NCBI GenBank assembly: GCA_022827885.1
Contig: JAJEIP010000137.1
Span: 124,001-188,000 of the forward strand
Direction of reading: 5' to 3'
Origin: Candidatus Poribacteria bacterium
GTDB taxonomy: Bacteria; Poribacteria; WGA-4E; WGA-3G
Length of the DNA stretch: 64,000 nucleotides
The first letter of the stretch is position 1, and every line of letters begins with the position of its first letter. The notes beneath the pieces are model-generated. The model was given only the letters and a program-made list of their open reading frames with translations. It had not been told where the DNA came from and did no database searches. The translations under genes and the position numbers were made by a program. Shown here piece by piece: positions 1,235 through 56,574 of the stretch.

Positions 1235-4200
1235 TTAAGAACATCCACTCGTTGATCCACAATTTGTGCAGCGATAGCAGACGCCGCTTCTCACCATAAG
1301 GGAGCCGCATTCAAGACACGGCGGCGCATCTGCATGTTGAAGCGAAATTTGCTTCTCATGTTCCGACCACGAGTCGGTTTCACCGTTGCTACCGTGTCCG
1401 TAGGGATGGAGTTCCTCAGGAGGTACCATCTCTTCATCCATATCTATCATGTTCCCTGCTTGTGGTTCCTGCGTGAGAAACTGTGTGCCGAGCCACCGGA
1501 AAACGTAATCTATAATCGACTTCGCCATCGGAATGTCAGGATTCGATGTAAAGCCTGACGGTTCAAATCGGACATGGCTGAACTTATTAACGAGCGACTC
1601 TAACGGCACGCCATACTGCAACGCAATAGAGGTGAGGACCGCTACAGAGTCCATCAGTCCAGAGACGGCTGTTCCTTCTTTGCTCATACGGAGGAAAACT
1701 TCTCCGGGGCTACCATCTTCATAGAACCCAACGTGGATGTAGCCTTCATGACCGCCCACGCTAAATTTGTGGGTCATAGAGGAACGCGTGTCAGAGAGAC
1801 GTTTCCTGATGGGACGTTCAGTAGAAGTTTCAGCGATAGCCTCATCGGTTTCACTCTCTGCATCCGGTTGGCTGCGGGTTGAAAGCGGTTGGCTACCTTT
1901 GCTGCCATCACGGTAAACGGCGAGACATTTGACACCGCGCCGCCACGCTTCCACGTATAGGGTTTTGATGTCATCCACCGTTGCGTCGTGTGGGACATTG
2001 ACAGTCTTGGAGATAGCACCAGAGATAAAGGGTTGCACAGCCGCCATCATTTTCAGTGGTCCCATGTGATTTATGTAACGAGTTCCGTGCTTACCACACT
2101 GGACAGCACAATCGAAAACGGCGTAGTGCGTCGGTGAGAGGTGTGGCGCGCCCTCAACCGTGCCTGTACCACAAATGACTTCTTCAGCGATACTGATTTC
2201 ATCTTCACTGAATCCGATTGCAGAGAGAAGATTAAAACTGGGATCTGCGGCTTCTTCTTGGGTTATACCTAACCGTTCAAGACACGCTTCTCCGAGAAAA
2301 CCCGGGGCAAAGGCGAGGTTCAGGTCAAACGCACTCGGTAACATCTCCGCAACACGGGCGATATCTTCCTGTGTGAAGCCTTTCCGTTTCAATGTGTCCG
2401 CATTGATGTGTGGGGTCCCTTCAAAAGTGCCCGTGCCCACGAGATACTTAATGATGGCTTCGGTTTGCTGAAGCGTATAATCTAAGTTGTGCAAGGCATC
2501 ACGAACGCTCTGATTGACAATTTTCATGTACCCGCCGCCTGCCAACTTCTTGAATTTAACGAGCGCAAACTCCGGTTCAATCCCGGTCGTATCACAATCC
2601 ATCAGGAAAGAAATCGTTCCGGTCGGAGCGATAACACTAATTTGGGAGTTCCGATACCCGCAACGTTCTCCCTTTTCAAGACAGGCATCCCAATCCGCTT
2701 TTGCGGCATCTAAAAGGTCGGGTGGGCATACCATCGGATCGATACTGTAGGCGGCATCGCGGTGCATCCGCATAACGTCCAACATGGAGTCGCTATTGTT
2801 CGCGTGTCCCACAAACGGACCGATACTCCCCGCAATCTCTGCGCTTGTTTGATACCCCATACCACTCAGGATAGCGGTAATCGCACCTGCGTAAGCACAC
2901 GCTTGGTCACTGTCGTAGGGAATCCCTAAACGCATCAAGAGTGCGCCCAAGTTCGCATAACCGAGTCCGAGCGGACGATATTCATGAGAACGTTGTGCTA
3001 TACTTTCCGTTGGATATGAAGAGAGATCTACGATGATTTCCATCGCGGTGACGAACACACGCACAGTTGCCTGGAAGCCTTCAATGTCAAAGGTGTTATC
3101 ATCTCTCAAGAATTTAGCAAGGTTAATGCTGGCAAGGTTACAGGCAGAATCGTCTAAGAAGAGGTATTCACTGCAGGGATTACTTGCGTTAATCCTGCCC
3201 GTATTTTTACAGGTATGCCATTTCTGAATCGTGCTGTCGAACTGGACTCCTGGATCCGCGCATGCCCAAGCGGCATAAGCGATCTTCTCCATGAGCGTTC
3301 TGGCATCGTATTCGTCGGCAACTTCACCGCTTGTCCGGTACGTCGTTTTCCATGAATCTCCCTGTAAGTAGGCGTTCATGAAATCATCTGGAATCCGGAC
3401 AGAATTGTTGCTGTTCTGTCCGCTGACGGTGCTATATGCCTCACCATTGAAATCGGCTGGATATCCTGCAGCGATGAGTGCCTTCGCTTTATTCTCTTCT
3501 CTGAGTTTCCAGTCGATATAATCAGCAATTTCTGGGTGATCCATGTCGAGGATGACCATTTTGGCTGCGCGTCTTGTAGTACCACCAGATTTGATACTAC
3601 CTGCCCATCGATCGAAGCCTTCGAGGAATGACAGGACCCCTGAACTCTCACCCCCGCCGGAGAGGAGTTCACCCTTCGCGCGGACTTTGCTGAAGTTCGA
3701 GCCTGTGCCACTGCCGTATTTAAAGAGACGCACTTCGGCTCTCTGGAGCTCCAACATAGAGTCCAGAGAATCGTCAACGCTTTGGATGAAGCAGGCGGAA
3801 TTTTGCGGGTGTTGGTATGCATTGGTAGTAACCTCGACTTTCTGTGCGTCTCGGTTCCAATAGTAGCTGCCGCCCCCTCCCTCGATATGATATTCATGCC
3901 ACAAACCGCAATTAAACCAAACAGGCGAATTGAAAGCACCCCGTTGTGTAACGAGGATATGCGTCAATTCCATCTCAAACGTCTCTGCGTCTTCAGGCGT
4001 AGCAAAATACCCGCCGAATTCCTCGCCTGCGCGACGGAGCGTGCGCGCCACCCGGGTAACCAATTGGCGAGCACTGTCTTCCGCTTCAGCACTGGGTAAT
4101 CCGGCTTTTCGGAAATATTTCGATGATGCAATATCTGTTGCAAGCTGCGTCCAGTCTGTCGGCACCTCAACCTGTTCTTGTTTAAAGATGACATCACCCT

Positions 4201-4369
4201 TTTCATTATAGATGACCGCGTCACGGCGTTCCCACTCCAATAAATCGTAGGGATGAACGCCGGGCGTGGTAAAATAGGGTGTGAAAGTGAGTCCCACCCT
4301 ATTACCTTCGCTATAATGCTTTGGAGAGGTTGCCTCTTCATCAACCCCGTTCGGATTATCAATCGTCAT
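1235..4369 (-). CDS. nrdJ: Adenosylcobalamin-dependent (class II) ribonucleotide reductase
   Basis: Reduces ribonucleotides to deoxyribonucleotides with a B12-derived radical, so no O2-dependent small subunit is needed. The 1044-residue protein shows NSACFIQSVDDSLDSML, the CNLASINL active-site block, ISVIAPTGTISF, and a C-terminal TSCPD-type domain. It ends in a zinc-ribbon tail (CLECG, CYRCTNC, then GCS) that carries the redox cysteines. I start at ATG 4369 (MTIDNPNG) because AAAGGGG lies 10 nt upstream; a longer frame begins at a TTG at 4408 without such a site. It lies 109 nt downstream of tyrS on the same strand, so co-transcription is possible. I saw no cobalamin riboswitch in that gap. 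Confidence 0.95.
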   Translation of the reverse strand: MTIDNPNGVDEEATSPKHYSEGNRVGLTFTPYFTTPGVHPYDLLEWERRDAVIYNEKGDVIFKQEQVEVPTDWTQLATDIASSKYFRKAGLPSAEAEDSARQLVTRVARTLRRAGEEFGGYFATPEDAETFEMELTHILVTQRGAFNSPVWFNCGLWHEYHIEGGGGSYYWNRDAQKVEVTTNAYQHPQNSACFIQSVDDSLDSMLELQRAEVRLFKYGSGTGSNFSKVRAKGELLSGGGESSGVLSFLEGFDRWAGSIKSGGTTRRAAKMVILDMDHPEIADYIDWKLREENKAKALIAAGYPADFNGEAYSTVSGQNSNNSVRIPDDFMNAYLQGDSWKTTYRTSGEVADEYDARTLMEKIAYAAWACADPGVQFDSTIQKWHTCKNTGRINASNPCSEYLFLDDSACNLASINLAKFLRDDNTFDIEGFQATVRVFVTAMEIIVDLSSYPTESIAQRSHEYRPLGLGYANLGALLMRLGIPYDSDQACAYAGAITAILSGMGYQTSAEIAGSIGPFVGHANNSDSMLDVMRMHRDAAYSIDPMVCPPDLLDAAKADWDACLEKGERCGYRNSQISVIAPTGTISFLMDCDTTGIEPEFALVKFKKLAGGGYMKIVNQSVRDALHNLDYTLQQTEAIIKYLVGTGTFEGTPHINADTLKRKGFTQEDIARVAEMLPSAFDLNLAFAPGFLGEACLERLGITQEEAADPSFNLLSAIGFSEDEISIAEEVICGTGTVEGAPHLSPTHYAVFDCAVQCGKHGTRYINHMGPLKMMAAVQPFISGAISKTVNVPHDATVDDIKTLYVEAWRRGVKCLAVYRDGSKGSQPLSTRSQPDAESETDEAIAETSTERPIRKRLSDTRSSMTHKFSVGGHEGYIHVGFYEDGSPGEVFLRMSKEGTAVSGLMDSVAVLTSIALQYGVPLESLVNKFSHVRFEPSGFTSNPDIPMAKSIIDYVFRWLGTQFLTQEPQAGNMIDMDEEMVPPEELHPYGHGSNGETDSWSEHEKQISLQHADAPPCLECGSLMVRSGVCYRCTNCGSTSGCS

Positions 4370-4478
4370 ACTCGTAGTACCCCTTTGGTTGTCAATACGC
4401 CCAAACAAAACACACTGATAACCATCTTATGATGATATACGCTCGAAAGCGCGTCTGTAAGAATTTCTATAGTTATAA

Positions 4479-29904: not shown

Positions 29905-31128
29905 ATGCGATACGATCTATCAACGCACACTATTCTAACAGATGAGGAACTCATTCGGCTTGCCCAAGCCGGTGATGAGTTGGCATTTGCAGAACTGATG
30001 TCGCGTTATAGTTCACGCATTTGGAGAGTGATTATCGCCAATTCGAGACAACCCCGCGATGCTGAAGAAATCCTCATGGATGTCTGGAGAGCCGTCTGGG
30101 AAAATATCAGCAAACTGCGGCGTGTTGAGAGTTTTAGTGGCTGGTTGCGTCGGATTGCTTACAACGCTTGCAAGCGATACTACGCTTCTGCCGGTCGTTC
30201 GGGAAACGACATTCCTTATAGTTATGCGGATTTGACGGATCGTATCGACCAAGATGCAGTTGCGCGTTTCAGGGAAACGGAACGCTACGACGCTATAAGG
30301 GAAGCCGTGCATCACCTCCCGGATAAAGTGCGCCGCGTTGCGGTCCTATACTATCTGGAATTGTGGAACGTCAAAGAGATCCACGCTGAACTCGGATTGG
30401 CGATAGGCACAATCAAGACCAAATTGAGACAGACACGTGAACTCTTACGCAAGGAGTTCGGTGTCGAACCTAAAAGAGGGAGAACCATGTCATCCAAACG
30501 AGAAGAATCCAAACGCATTCACACCAGAATCAAGGTTATTGGGGTCGGTGGCGCGGGCGGTAATGCCATTAAACGAATGATTGAAGACGGTTTGACGGAC
30601 ATTGAATTTTATACCGTGAATACAGACCAGCAAGCACTCGACAAACACCCTGAAGCAACACCGGTGCAGATCGGTGCTAACACTACCCAAGGACTTGGAT
30701 GTGGCGCGAACCCAGAGATAGGTCGAAGAGCCGCTGAAGAGGACAGGGAAACGCTCAACACCATCGTTGCGGACGCGGATATTGTCTTCGTTATAGCCGG
30801 TATGGGAGGTGGAACAGGAGCGGGTGCTTCGCCTCTGATTGCATCTCTCGCTCGGGAGCAAGGTGCTTTGGCTGTAGGTGTTGTAACCTGTCCATTCAAC
30901 TTTGAGGGTCAACGTCGCGCCGAACAAGCGAAACGTTCACTACAGGAAATTCAAGAGAATGCTGATTCTGTCGTTGTCGTGCAAAACCAGCAATTGCTCG
31001 ATTCGATAGAGCAGCAGCAGAAACTGTCAATGACAATACGCGAGGCGTTCCATCTCAGCGATGAGACGCTGCTCCGAAGTGTTGAAAGAAGCATCTCGGA
31101 ATTTCATGCCAATGCTTTGCGAAACTAA
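29905..31128 (+). CDS. ECF sigma factor fused to the N-terminal GTPase domain of FtsZ
   Basis: A 407-residue chimera. Residues 1-185 are an ECF sigma: AFAELMSRYSSRIWRVI, RDAEEILMDVWRAVWE, FSGWLRRIAYNACKRYY, and region 4 VKEIHAELGLAIGTIKTKL. From Met195 the sequence is FtsZ: GVGGAGGNA (213-221), VNTDQQAL, GMGGGTGAG (299-307, the tubulin/FtsZ signature), VVTCPFNFEGQRR, VVVQNQQLL, and REAFHLSDETLL. It stops there, so the T7 loop, the C-terminal FtsZ domain and the tail that binds FtsA/ZipA-type partners are missing. Met195 (ATG 30487) has AGAGGGAG just upstream, allowing separate translation of the FtsZ part. Start ATG 29905 with AGAGGA upstream. Confidence 0.92.
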   Translation: MRYDLSTHTILTDEELIRLAQAGDELAFAELMSRYSSRIWRVIIANSRQPRDAEEILMDVWRAVWENISKLRRVESFSGWLRRIAYNACKRYYASAGRSGNDIPYSYADLTDRIDQDAVARFRETERYDAIREAVHHLPDKVRRVAVLYYLELWNVKEIHAELGLAIGTIKTKLRQTRELLRKEFGVEPKRGRTMSSKREESKRIHTRIKVIGVGGAGGNAIKRMIEDGLTDIEFYTVNTDQQALDKHPEATPVQIGANTTQGLGCGANPEIGRRAAEEDRETLNTIVADADIVFVIAGMGGGTGAGASPLIASLAREQGALAVGVVTCPFNFEGQRRAEQAKRSLQEIQENADSVVVVQNQQLLDSIEQQQKLSMTIREAFHLSDETLLRSVERSISEFHANALRN

Positions 31129-48439: not shown

Positions 48440-49264
48440 CTAAACCGTCAGCGTAACCGCATCCTGTTTCACAATTTCCTTGATATGACCATATCCCGCA
48501 GATTCCACCAATTCTAATGTTTCTGGAGACAGCCGATCCAAGATGGGCTGCGGGAAGCTATGCCTACCCGTGTATTGTGGGAAATACCGCAGGACGAGGA
48601 AACGACGATCTCGATCCTTCGGTTTCCAACGCAATACACCGTGCGTTAACAACTCCGAAATAATCACGATATCGCCCGCCTTGGGTGTGATATTGAGGAA
48701 TACGGGATCGTCAAGCGGATCAATACCATCTTCTTCATCGAGTATCAGTAACTGCTCCGGTCGCTTAAACTCGCTCTTATGCGAACCGGGAATCACGATG
48801 AGTCCGCCATCGCCTGGATAGACATCCGTAAAATAGGGAAAACAGACAAAATTATCACAGTAGATGTGTCCGTTATCGACCTCGTAACGCGTGCTATACC
48901 ACCCATAATCGTCACGCGCACAGTGCAGTCCGCCCGGATTCACTTGCGCCCGCTCTCCTGCTTCCCATAAATCGTGCCTGTCGTGCTTCAAGGAGCCTCT
49001 ACCGAATCGTGGCTGATTGTCTGTGAGTTCTTTAATAATCGGCCATATCGCTTTATGCACCGTTAAGCGTTCAAGCGATTTATCGAAGGCGAACCCGTGC
49101 TGATGGAGCCCTTGTATCTCAAAACCTGGAGGCAATTCATCGGGAGGGGTTGTGATATATCTATCAACTGCCTCAGCAGCTTCCGCCAATGCATCGCCGG
49201 TGATAACGTTTTCCAAATGAAGATATCCGGTTACATCAAACAGATACCGTTGTTTCGGTGTCAT
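48440..49264 (-). CDS. Phytanoyl-CoA dioxygenase (PhyH)-family protein 1
   Basis: A 274-residue protein of the Fe(II)/2-oxoglutarate-dependent PhyH group, substrate unknown. The N terminus has the usual QRYLFDVTGYLHLENVI; the core has HCARDDYGWY, YCDNFVCFPYFTDVYPGDGGLIVIPGSHKSEFKRPEQL, then GDIVIISELLTHGVLRW. The final H and the R in DRRFLVLRYFPQY fit the metal and 2-oxoglutarate sites. The ATG at 49264 lies at the end of the dispersed repeat (AACCGCAAGGTATAATTAAA). Confidence 0.9.
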   Translation of the reverse strand: MTPKQRYLFDVTGYLHLENVITGDALAEAAEAVDRYITTPPDELPPGFEIQGLHQHGFAFDKSLERLTVHKAIWPIIKELTDNQPRFGRGSLKHDRHDLWEAGERAQVNPGGLHCARDDYGWYSTRYEVDNGHIYCDNFVCFPYFTDVYPGDGGLIVIPGSHKSEFKRPEQLLILDEEDGIDPLDDPVFLNITPKAGDIVIISELLTHGVLRWKPKDRDRRFLVLRYFPQYTGRHSFPQPILDRLSPETLELVESAGYGHIKEIVKQDAVTLTV

Positions 49265-49452: not shown

Positions 49453-50337
49453 TCATAGTGCCATGTCAAACTTTGTGCCGGTGACGTTGCCCTTTACATA
49501 AGCTTCACGAAAGAGCGTCTGGCGTTTCGGAGGCATTTCATTGAGCAATGCCTGTGGCGGTTTTGAGAGACTCCATCGCTTATCCACAGAGTTATAAGCA
49601 TTGAAGACGGCGACTCGATCGGTGTCCGGGTTTTGCCATGGCTGTCCGCTATGCGTGAGCGCTTCTGTGAAGATGATGACAGAGCCAGCAGGACAAGAAT
49701 AGGTATCCCAGAACGCCCAATCTTGTGTATGGGCACCCTCTGGTGCGGTATAAGCCGCTTTGTGGCTCCCCGTAATGAACATCGTTCCACCGTCACTTTT
49801 CTCCACGGGATTGAGTTCCCAGACGACGCGCGTCAAACCACTATATGCCTGACCCGGAAGGCATGAATACTGGTGACAATCTCCCGGCATTCGCCATAAA
49901 CCGTTGCCGTTGTGGGCATGGAATGTGAAAGGCGTTTCGTCTGTGGTAGACCGCAATGCCAAGAAACTCATCTCCATACGGAACCCGTAACAGGTATCCG
50001 ACGCGAGATAGGGCGACGCGAGAAATTCGTTTCCGAATGCCACGACGACCGGATGATCTGTCAATTTCTCCAAAGGACCCCCGTAGGTTGAGCGATGGTG
50101 TTGCGGAATCGTTTCGGGGTCGTGCTTTAAGCGGTAACAGAAATCACGCATCTCTTCGATCTCTGATTCCGTTAACACGCCCGGCACCAAAAGCCATCCA
50201 TTTTTGTCAAACAGATATTTCTGTTCCTGTGTTAAAGGAACAACCGCTTTACCATCAGCGTTTGTTTGCGTAAGATCGGCGGGTGCTGTTGCCAAAGGAC
50301 TGCCTAAATCTTTGTTAAATTTACCTAACTGTTCCAC
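49453..50337 (-). CDS. Phytanoyl-CoA dioxygenase (PhyH)-family protein 2
   Basis: A 294-residue PhyH-type oxygenase. QKYLFDKNGWLLVPGVLTESEIEEMRDF is the family N terminus; the core has FTFHAHNGNGLWRMPGD, VVWELNPVEKSDGGTMFITGSHKAAY and VIIFTEALTHSGQPW. I start at GTG 50337 (MEQLGKFNK) because GGGAGG lies 8 nt upstream. The longer frame from 50418 passes through a dispersed element (TTGTAAGCACGATT twice, 50368 and 50409). Confidence 0.88.
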   Translation of the reverse strand: MEQLGKFNKDLGSPLATAPADLTQTNADGKAVVPLTQEQKYLFDKNGWLLVPGVLTESEIEEMRDFCYRLKHDPETIPQHHRSTYGGPLEKLTDHPVVVAFGNEFLASPYLASDTCYGFRMEMSFLALRSTTDETPFTFHAHNGNGLWRMPGDCHQYSCLPGQAYSGLTRVVWELNPVEKSDGGTMFITGSHKAAYTAPEGAHTQDWAFWDTYSCPAGSVIIFTEALTHSGQPWQNPDTDRVAVFNAYNSVDKRWSLSKPPQALLNEMPPKRQTLFREAYVKGNVTGTKFDMAL

Positions 50338-50469
50338 CCTAAATTCCTCCCTCTCTTGTGGAAAATATTGTAAGCACGATTTGACAATATCTTTCTTGTG
50401 GGAGTGCTTTGTAAGCACGATTGAAAATCGGTGATACTTAAGTCTATATGTAAAACGTTGGTTAACAAA

Positions 50470-53830: not shown

Positions 53831-54859
53831 ATGAAACACTATACCCCCATTTTCATACTGTACTTTTTCGTTGCTCTCTGTGCGACCGCTGCAGATTATA
53901 CAGACGACGCAATCCGAACCCTACTACCCTTCGATGCCATTCCGGCTATCACCGATCCGCAATTCGTATCGGCTAGCGACGCGAAATTAGACCTTGATGC
54001 CCCTGTTATTGGTGTAACCTTCAACGACGAAAGCCGTGCCTATTCGCTCTATCTGCTGAACGGACACGAAATCGTCAACGACGTTGTCGGCGGACTGAAA
54101 ATCGCCACGACGTGGTGACCGCTCTGCAAAACGGCTATCGTGTATAGCCGGGACCTTGATGGGAAAACCTATACGTTTGGGGTTAGCGGTAAATTGTGGC
54201 GGGATGCGCTGTTGATGTATGACCATCAGACCCGTTCCCTCTGGTCACATATCACCGGAGAGGCGATAAAGGGACCCCTCAAAGGGAAGCGATTGAAACC
54301 ACTCGCCTCTATGCCACAGATCGCATGGAAAGCATGGCAGCTGAATTATCCGAATACACGTGTGCTGTCCGTGCCGACCAGAGATGGGATGCGCGAGAAC
54401 CGACGTCAGGATGTCTACGCCGATTATCACGCCAGCCAGCGCGCAGGCGTGAGCGGAATGGACTATACCGATAATCGGTTACCGAACAAATCCCTCGTCA
54501 TTGGCGTTCAGGTACAGACAAAGGATGGGAACACCCAGTTTCGGGCGTATCCGTTGACACACTTTACGGAAACTGCCATTATCAACGATACACTCGGCGA
54601 CGTGCCGCTGCTCATCTTTCATGACAAAAAATCTTTCGCAACGGCAGTCTTCAAACGGAATGTAGCAGCGGACGCGCGAACCTTTACGCCACAAGATCGA
54701 TACTTCGTAGAGGATAACACAGGGACGCGTTGGAATCTCGTTACAGGTGCGGCAATATCGGGGAAAGATGCGGGCAAGCGTTTAGAACGATTGCCCGCTG
54801 TTAACATCTATTGGTTCGCGTGGGCGCGCTACTATCCCGAAACCTCGATCTATCGGTAA
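53831..54859 (+). CDS. Exported DUF3179 protein with in-frame TGA (candidate selenoprotein)
   Basis: One frame of 343 codons, interrupted once by TGA at 54116-54118 (codon 96). Before it: signal peptide (LYFFVALCATAADY), PVIGVTFNDESRAYSLYLLNGHEIVNDVVGG. After it: PLCKTAIVYSR, YTFGVSGKLW, LLMYDHQTRSLWSHITGEAIKGPLKG and a second DUF3179-like half up to WFAWARYYPETSIYR. DUF3179 proteins normally read T(Y/F)CPLC here; this one reads T-W-TGA-P-L-C, so the TGA replaces the first Cys of a CxxC pair. A hairpin with bacterial SECIS geometry follows. If TGA is not recoded, the gene is a nonsense pseudogene with a 95-residue product. The family's function is unknown. Confidence 0.75.
54132..54150 (+). 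promoter_or_regulatory. Candidate bacterial SECIS element
   Basis: CGGCTAT (54132-54138), loop CGTGT (54139-54143), ATAGCCG (54144-54150): a perfect 7-bp stem. The stem starts 13 nt and the loop 20 nt after the TGA, and the loop has G in its first two bases followed by T. This fits the known bSECIS rules (loop about 16-37 nt from UGA, G in the first two loop positions). Confidence 0.6.
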
Positions 54860-54895: not shown

Positions 54896-54920
54896 TAGGC
54901 GCGCTTACAAAGCGCGCCTA
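54896..54920. terminator. GGCGCGC hairpin after the DUF3179 gene
   Basis: TAGGCGCGCTT, ACA, AAGCGCGCCTA: an 11-bp stem in the gap between converging genes; no T-run. It may end transcription from either side. Confidence 0.5.
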
Positions 54921-54961: not shown

Positions 54962-55723
54962 TTAATCGTCCAGTTCGACGATTTCGCCTGTCATGTTGCG
55001 GTGCATCGTCGGGCGAATGACTAATTCCGGGATGTTGCTCCGTTGGGGTAGCGTCGCAATCAGCAAAATCGCCGCTGAGGTCTCGTCGACATCTACCATC
55101 GTGGCGCGAGCGGCAGCGTCCGGCGGAACCGGACGATTGTCCAGAATCGGCGTTGCTACCTCACCTGGAACGACAACGCTCGCTCGGATGCCGGTGTTCC
55201 GTAAATCTGCGTTGAGGAATTCCGTGAAATTGATAACCGCTGCCTTCGCAGCACCGTAAGCAAAACCGCTAAACGGACCCGGGGTGACCGCCGCGAGCGA
55301 CGAGATATTGATAATCGTCCCCGATTTCGCTTTTAGCATCGCCGGCACAACCGCTTTCGTACAGAAAAATGTGCCCATTAGATTTGAATCGATCACCGAA
55401 CGCATCTCCTCAGGGGGTGTGTTGAGGAGTCGCCGATGCTGTGAACTGTGTCCGGCATTGTTCACAAGCACGTCAATCCGTCCAAATTTTTCAAGCACAT
55501 CGGCAGTCATCTGTTCCACAGCATCGTAGTCAGCCACGTCAAACGCGTAACTTACCGCTGTCCCACCTGCCGCTTCAACTTCAGCCTTGACAGAGACCAA
55601 CTTTGATTCTGTTCTACCGTTAATGACAACCGTCGCACCCTCTTGTGCCATTGCGAGGGCGGCACCGCGCCCTATACCGCTGCCACCACCCGTAATAATA
55701 CAGACATTTCCTTCTAAACGCAT
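54962..55723 (-). CDS. Short-chain dehydrogenase/reductase
   Basis: A 253-residue SDR oxidoreductase. TGGGSGIG (cofactor), NNAG, Ser in NISSLAAVTPG, and the YGAAK catalytic pair (YxxxK) are all present, so the enzyme should be active. Substrate unknown. Its start lies 10 nt inside the end of the PhyH gene upstream on the same strand, so the two are probably co-translated and may act in one pathway. Confidence 0.93.
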   Translation of the reverse strand: MRLEGNVCIITGGGSGIGRGAALAMAQEGATVVINGRTESKLVSVKAEVEAAGGTAVSYAFDVADYDAVEQMTADVLEKFGRIDVLVNNAGHSSQHRRLLNTPPEEMRSVIDSNLMGTFFCTKAVVPAMLKAKSGTIINISSLAAVTPGPFSGFAYGAAKAAVINFTEFLNADLRNTGIRASVVVPGEVATPILDNRPVPPDAAARATMVDVDETSAAILLIATLPQRSNIPELVIRPTMHRNMTGEIVELDD

Positions 55724-56556
55724 TCTTCTCCTCCATTCGGCAAAACGGGTTTTACTGCCGCTTTCACCGCTTTTGATAACGATTCTAATTCATACTGTGC
55801 ATCCGAGATTTTATCGCGATGTTCGTCGAGTGGGTATCCACCCTTTCCGGTCTCATTGAAATAGGCACTCAGTTGGTAACGTTGGAAGATGTTCATCCGT
55901 GGGTAATCCTCTGTCCACGGACTCGCATCGTGGAGCAGGTTTGTGGAGAAGATCGCCACATCGCCTGCCGCCATCGGAAGTGTAATTGAAGTGGGAGGAT
56001 CGTGCTTCACGGGCAGATTCTCTGGGGTCTGAAACAGGGATTTATGACTACCGGGGACAAGACAAAAGCCGGTTCCGGGTGGCACCTCTACGAGTGCTAC
56101 CCACGTCGCAATGTGGCTGCAATAGATGTGTCCAGCAGCGGCTTGATAATCGTTGTGTGGGTTGCGAAACCCAGGTGGGAATTTGAACCCACTGTCGTCA
56201 CGATGGAAGTGTTGCGGGGCATCGTGTTTCGTCATCATCGTGAAATTGCAATGAAACAGGCGTGGGGCATTCATTGTCAACCCCGCCACAACCCGCATAA
56301 TGTCAGGATTCATTGCAAGGTCTTCAAAGAGACGATGCCCATACTGGATATGTCCGATATGTGTTTTACAAGGCTCCTGTCGTCCGCGGTCCAGCGGTGG
56401 TGGGATGTCGGCTTCATCAATTGTCAACCAATGTTGAAGCACATCTAACATCTCTGCAATTGCGTCTTTTGGGATAATATTCCGTAAAACGAGAAAGCCG
56501 TGTAAATCAAAGTACCACTTCTCCGCTTCCGTCAAAGTGGAATGGATTGTATGCAT
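55714..56556 (-). CDS. Phytanoyl-CoA dioxygenase (PhyH)-family protein 3
   Basis: A 280-residue Fe(II)/2-oxoglutarate oxygenase. EKWYFDLHGFLVLRNIIPKDAIAEML is the family N terminus. HFHRDDSGF gives a good metal-binding HxxD-like site, GHIYCSHIATWVALVEVPPGTGFCLVPGSHKSLFQTPENL matches the core, and GDVAIFSTNLLHDASPW supplies the distal His. I start at ATG 56556 with GGAG 7 nt upstream. It overlaps the SDR gene by 10 nt. Confidence 0.9.
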   Translation of the reverse strand: MHTIHSTLTEAEKWYFDLHGFLVLRNIIPKDAIAEMLDVLQHWLTIDEADIPPPLDRGRQEPCKTHIGHIQYGHRLFEDLAMNPDIMRVVAGLTMNAPRLFHCNFTMMTKHDAPQHFHRDDSGFKFPPGFRNPHNDYQAAAGHIYCSHIATWVALVEVPPGTGFCLVPGSHKSLFQTPENLPVKHDPPTSITLPMAAGDVAIFSTNLLHDASPWTEDYPRMNIFQRYQLSAYFNETGKGGYPLDEHRDKISDAQYELESLSKAVKAAVKPVLPNGGEECV

Positions 56557-56574
56557 TAATTTTCTCCGCAATTC

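Follow-up and report, generated by a model that had tools for sequence, protein, structure and literature searches.

The locus considered here poses a simple question: does a lone in-frame TGA at positions 54116-54118 terminate a gene, or is it decoded as selenocysteine (Sec)? It lies in a 64,000-nucleotide stretch of DNA (hereafter the window; positions 124,001 to 188,000 of contig JAJEIP010000137.1, assembly GCA_022827885.1) from the 5.13 Mb genome, in 148 contigs, of a sponge-associated Candidatus Poribacteria bacterium whose relatives are likewise Candidatus Poribacteria. As recognized in the initial annotation, the TGA is the sole interruption of the frame 53831-54859 and stands where the CPLC motif of the DUF3179 family has its first cysteine, i.e. 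the first residue of a predicted UPLC. The read-through product of 342 residues matches PF11376 (DUF3179) with an E-value of 8e-78 and 262 bits (gathering cut-off 27), covering positions 2-292 of the 292-position profile (291/292). The gene is present as a single copy in the host genome, and when the full 64 kb were scanned by codon usage, no in-frame TGA other than that at 54116 had coding signal on both sides. The features of the locus are:

53831..54859, + strand: DUF3179 gene, predicted selenoprotein of 342 residues with Sec at 96; residues 1 to about 21 resemble a signal peptide (by eye)
53957..54379, + strand: repeat 1 of an internal duplication, residues about 43-183, with H79-E80, N83-D84 and U96-P-L-C99
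54116..54118, + strand: in-frame TGA, almost certainly read as selenocysteine (U96 in T-W-U-P-L-C)
54125..54127, + strand: C99, the second cysteine of UxxC, replaced by A, T, V or S in some Sec relatives
54132..54150, + strand: candidate bacterial SECIS hairpin with a 7-bp stem (CGGCTAT/ATAGCCG) and apical loop CGTGT
54494..54850, + strand: repeat 2, residues about 222-340, homologous to repeat 1 and lacking the HE...CPLC motif

Decoding of the TGA as Sec calls on dedicated machinery, on whose presence the initial annotation had made its reading depend, and selA, selB, selC and selD were all found in the host genome. A single tRNA-Sec exceeds the Rfam cut-off (75.4 bits against a cut-off of 47), has the anticodon TCA and is located directly downstream of a full-length selB; selA (601 bits) is on the same contig as the window. 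The selD gene (L072, G000:C144:60983-61906; 360 bits) likewise has an in-frame TGA, within the motif KCAGUAS. It codes for a selenophosphate synthetase, a protein unrelated to DUF3179, and thus at least two selenoprotein genes appear to share the machinery of this genome.

The TGA is not a peculiarity of one assembly. Independent assemblies whose proteins are 94% and 87% identical to this one have the identical TGA, which shows that it is not a sequencing error. It is kept in all 55 poribacterial loci that cover the site, drawn from metagenome-assembled genomes of many assemblies and including long-read chromosomes. Across the phylum Poribacteria, DUF3179 was recovered in 75 of 85 genomes, with a match containing a single TGA in 69 of those 75, whereas in the phylum of the acidobacterial metagenome-assembled genome L063 it occurs in 91 of 297 sampled genomes, about 45 of which (45/91) have TGA-containing matches. 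Down to about 40% identity, dozens of species retain the identical TGA with no further disruption. The exchange between TGA and cysteine codons expected among homologs is seen in the column of U96, where the loci read base by base comprise 130 TGA and 41 Cys codons. The Cys forms (CPLC/CTLC) have TGC or TGT in place of TGA but share the domain and the conserved residues H79, D84, D131, W138 and G148. The Sec motifs are varied (UPLC, UTLC, UPLA, UPLT, UPLV, UPLS, UHLC, USLC, UVLC, UENC, UVVC), and the second cysteine is missing in 14 of the 28 UPL/UHL-type Sec genes that remain after thinning. Those with UENC or UVVC (L176, L177, L178 and L186) are deep-branching relatives with other hairpins and might be independent Sec sites.

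The distribution of the two forms points to repeated exchange between them. A tree of repeat 1, computed with the motif columns excluded, requires six Sec/Cys changes as against 24 with shuffled labels; at least two are forced by well supported branches, although the tree is built from few columns and gives no direction. Of 40 genomes with TGA forms, 36 gave a tRNA-Sec, as did 29 of the 37 that have Cys forms only; some of the four negative genomes of the first set may be incomplete. No tRNA-Sec was found in the genome encoding L064, a Cys form that nests alongside a Sec form, or in five genomes with Cys forms of the subfamily discussed below that shares the peptide HTGLVW. These cases fit, without proving, a change from Sec to Cys upon loss of the machinery.

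Immediately downstream of the TGA is the hairpin noted in the initial annotation, with the 5' arm CGGCTAT at 54132-54138, the loop CGTGT at 54139-54143 and the 3' arm ATAGCCG at 54144-54150. Its stem begins 13 nt and its loop 20 nt after the TGA, the span of 13-31 nt given earlier being off by one at most. Folded alone, it reaches -9.5 kcal/mol (z -3.0), a level attained by 2 of 200 shuffles. The published bacterial SECIS constraints comprise a loop of 3-9 nt, a stem of 4-16 bp, a distance of 16-37 nt from the UGA, a G among the first two loop positions and a minimum free energy of at most -7.5 (PMC13188914); all are satisfied here, by a 5-nt loop, 7 bp, a distance of 20 nt, the loop sequence CGUGU and -9.5 kcal/mol, respectively. 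A search of the DUF3179 locus against Rfam gave no match. For this gene alone, the 61-nt fold around the hairpin is unexceptional (z -0.76), as is the hairpin against synonymous-codon shuffles (p 0.086), and its support therefore rests on comparison. The folding energy of the whole region proved too blunt for this comparison (mean z -0.87 in Sec and -0.40 in Cys genes) and was replaced by tests of contiguous stems and synonymous codons.

These tests show that the RNA itself is under selection. Among 25 diverse sequences with the register of the window gene, sampled across phyla, five of the seven stem pairs change on both sides with pairing kept; 95.4% of the stem cells are paired, versus at most 42% when the partner is slid, and 33 cells show double changes versus 11.5 after shuffling. 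Contiguous stems of 6 bp or more were detected in 44 of 48 thinned Sec genes versus 7 of 34 Cys genes (27/34 thus lacking one). The sequences compared in all these tests are related, so that p-values overstate independence, but two further tests serve as within-family controls. In 54 poribacterial genes, codons 101-105 (T101-A102-I103-V104-Y105) are devoid of any synonymous variation, against a mean normalized synonymous entropy of 0.71 at conserved residues elsewhere in the same genes, while codon 106 is only ever AGC or AGT, either of which preserves a G-C or G-U pair. In the UTLC/USLC/UVLC subfamily the peptide HTGLVW occurs in Sec and Cys genes alike: all 16 Sec genes (16/16) encode it as CACACCGGTCTGGTGTGG, which forms a stem with a GGUCU loop, whereas six Cys genes encode it in six different ways, all unlike that of the Sec genes. 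The selection may extend to the protein. Among Cys forms, 23 of 34 have Asp or Glu at residue 106, which falls within the 3' arm; among UPL/UHL-type Sec forms only 3 of 28 do, with Ser, Ala, Val or Gly predominating instead. The covariation suggests that this residue tracks the pairing needs of the 5' arm, such that the RNA would be shaping the protein.

A known counterpart of these elements is the fdhF-type SECIS of Escherichia coli, a stem-loop downstream of the in-frame UGA with the apical loop GGUCU. The acidobacterial UTLC/USLC/UVLC relatives have exactly this loop, on a CCACACC/GGTGTGG stem, whereas the window gene has the loop CGUGU on a stem placed five nucleotides further from the UGA (13 versus 8 nt). 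The family contains two SECIS registers.

With the machinery, the conservation of the TGA, the selection on the RNA and the contrasting codings of HTGLVW in Sec and Cys genes taken together, Sec insertion is the clear explanation, and Sec is almost certainly inserted at 54116-54118, as the initial annotation had proposed. Mechanical ORF calling yields a different gene, 54140-54859, of 239 residues with a GTG start, and standard annotation would likely report the same; the TGA would then be a genuine premature stop, leaving a pseudogene or two genes with the second starting at GTG 54140. This start falls inside the hairpin loop and would delete the conserved motif. Moreover, neither decay nor a gene split sits well with a TGA that is kept without other disruption in dozens of species, or with a hairpin that is selected only in TGA genes, and we regard this account as extremely improbable. 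That one in-frame TGA is present might also be explained by a genome-wide reassignment of TGA to another amino acid such as Trp or Gly, with no selenium involved. Yet 4 of the 30 long ORFs of the window use TGA as their ordinary stop, the 64 kb hold no other in-frame coding TGA, relatives have Cys at the site rather than Trp or Gly, and the genome encodes complete Sec machinery, leaving reassignment a negligible probability.

Turning to what the selenoprotein might do, the genomic context proved of little help. The flanking genes, an M42 peptidase and a short-chain dehydrogenase, are on the opposite strand, and among 30 neighbors elsewhere, which are unrelated, no family recurs more than three times; no conserved neighbor points to a pathway, and gene neighborhood was dropped as a guide. 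About 36 nt 3' of the gene is a near-perfect 25-bp palindrome without a T run (TAGGCGCGCTTACAAAGCGCGCCTA, 54896-54920), the only copy in the window with up to three mismatches allowed; it may be a terminator or else a dispersed palindromic element. Three genes for phytanoyl-CoA dioxygenase (PhyH) are found nearby (48440-49264, 49453-50418 and 55714-56571). Farther away, the window encodes a Tubulin/FtsZ GTPase protein (29905-31128), whose match begins only at residue 208 of 407 and which thus has a long N-terminal extension, and a 1057-residue class II B12-dependent ribonucleotide reductase (1235-4408), the barrel domain of which gives a match in two stretches.

The two repeats of the protein are homologous (hhalign 99.9%, E 7e-31), and H79-E80, N83-D84 and UPLC occur together in repeat 1 only. 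In some poribacterial relatives (L029, L033, L037, L044 and L057) the two repeats are separated by a collagen-like Gly-rich insertion (e.g. AGADGQAGADG). The AlphaFold model is confident (pLDDT 88.8, pTM 0.87) and mostly beta, and no solved structure is related by sequence even at an E-value of 10. In Foldseek searches of the PDB with models of the full protein and of repeat 1, nearly all high-probability matches are Rieske ferredoxins or NirD-type Rieske folds, with probabilities up to 1.00 and a best E-value of 0.02. In BFVD, the model matches giant-virus proteins of Indivirus ILV1 (A0A1V0SD44, E 1.9e-8) and Hokovirus HKV1 (1.5e-3). The Rieske ligand pair CxH...CxxH is absent from DUF3179, the site of which reads NGH(E/H)...[U/C]xxC. 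Profile comparison did not support Rieske homology (0.1-1.8% probability), and a superposition of the motif on the Rieske ligand boxes by their equal H-to-C spacing (17) was not adopted, as the profile alignment of repeat 2 puts the boxes elsewhere. The predicted structures thus suggest a Rieske-like fold weakly, as a lead.

This lead bears on the function of the Sec and not on its insertion; as to function, the initial annotation had taken the motif as a hint of a thiol oxidoreductase or a metal-binding protein. In a Rieske-related fold, the chief role of Sec could be to bind a metal or cofactor instead of catalyzing a redox reaction, and such a ligand site would be in keeping with the nature of the Foldseek matches, with the conservation of H79 in 90% of thinned rows next to an E or H at residue 80, and with the loss of C99 without loss of U96, which suits a ligand site as well as it suits catalysis. 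Set against this are the absence of any PDB match reaching an E-value of 0.001, the negligible profile probabilities, the different placement of the second Rieske box in the weak alignment of repeat 2 and the lack of a solved relative by sequence; on balance, the ligand role is unlikely, though a serious competitor. We consider a selenol/thiol redox role moderately probable, and would place it in the periplasm given the likely export of the product, for which the signal-peptide-like N-terminus argues. We envisage that SelB carrying Sec-tRNA-Sec would bind the hairpin at 54132-54150, with the ribosome then decoding the UGA at 54116 as Sec in vivo; in the exported product, a selenol would replace the thiol in the U-P-L-C of repeat 1, one of a homologous beta-rich pair, and perform a periplasmic selenol/thiol redox step, the oxidized selenium being resolved by C99. 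An intramolecular couple of U and C cannot be general, given that 14 of the 28 thinned UPL/UHL-type Sec genes have C99 replaced, and in the UPLA, UPLT, UPLV and UPLS relatives an outside thiol might resolve the oxidized selenium instead.

The initial annotation had also suggested a new selenoprotein family, which does not hold: the DUF3179 domain-containing protein (pfam11376, UxxC/T) is listed among selenoproteins in reviews of 2022 (PMC9312934) and 2026 (PMC13188914), both of which credit it to Zhang and Gladyshev 2007, in the Olavius algarvensis delta symbiont, with MBW1804167.1 and MDJ0986319.1 as examples. The window gene thus joins an already known selenoprotein family, sharing with the listed protein the Pfam family and Sec at the first position of UxxC/T. 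It differs in coming from Poribacteria, where the TGA is the rule, and its relatives add UPLA, UPLV, UPLS, UTLC, UHLC, USLC, UVLC, UENC and UVVC to the listed motif. According to a 2017 study of sponge microbiomes (PMC5649159), most bins of sponge symbionts contain the COGs of both SelA and SelB, which most of the references for these bins lack. The open-access literature searched yielded no paper on poribacterial selenoproteins; judged from that literature, novelty may lie in the diversity of motifs, the breadth of distribution and the pair of SECIS registers.

What is added here is the scale of the family, the two SECIS registers, the repeated exchange of Sec and Cys and the internal duplication. 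One could go further and picture a large, mostly overlooked group of exported DUF3179 selenoproteins with repeated Sec/Cys exchange, in which two or more SECIS registers arose independently over one active site, the SECIS dictates residue 106, and a duplicated Rieske-like domain turned a former iron-sulfur site into a selenol site; as a whole this scenario is improbable. Automatic annotation can halve such genes, as the start called at GTG 54140 illustrates. With Sec-DUF3179 in most sampled Poribacteria and in about half of the DUF3179-bearing genomes of the acidobacterial phylum sample, annotation probably underestimates the use of selenium in both groups. The paired Sec and Cys subfamilies, in which an identical peptide is spelled with different codons, constitute a natural experiment on how a SECIS constrains a protein, and would open the chemistry of DUF3179 to testing what selenium buys.
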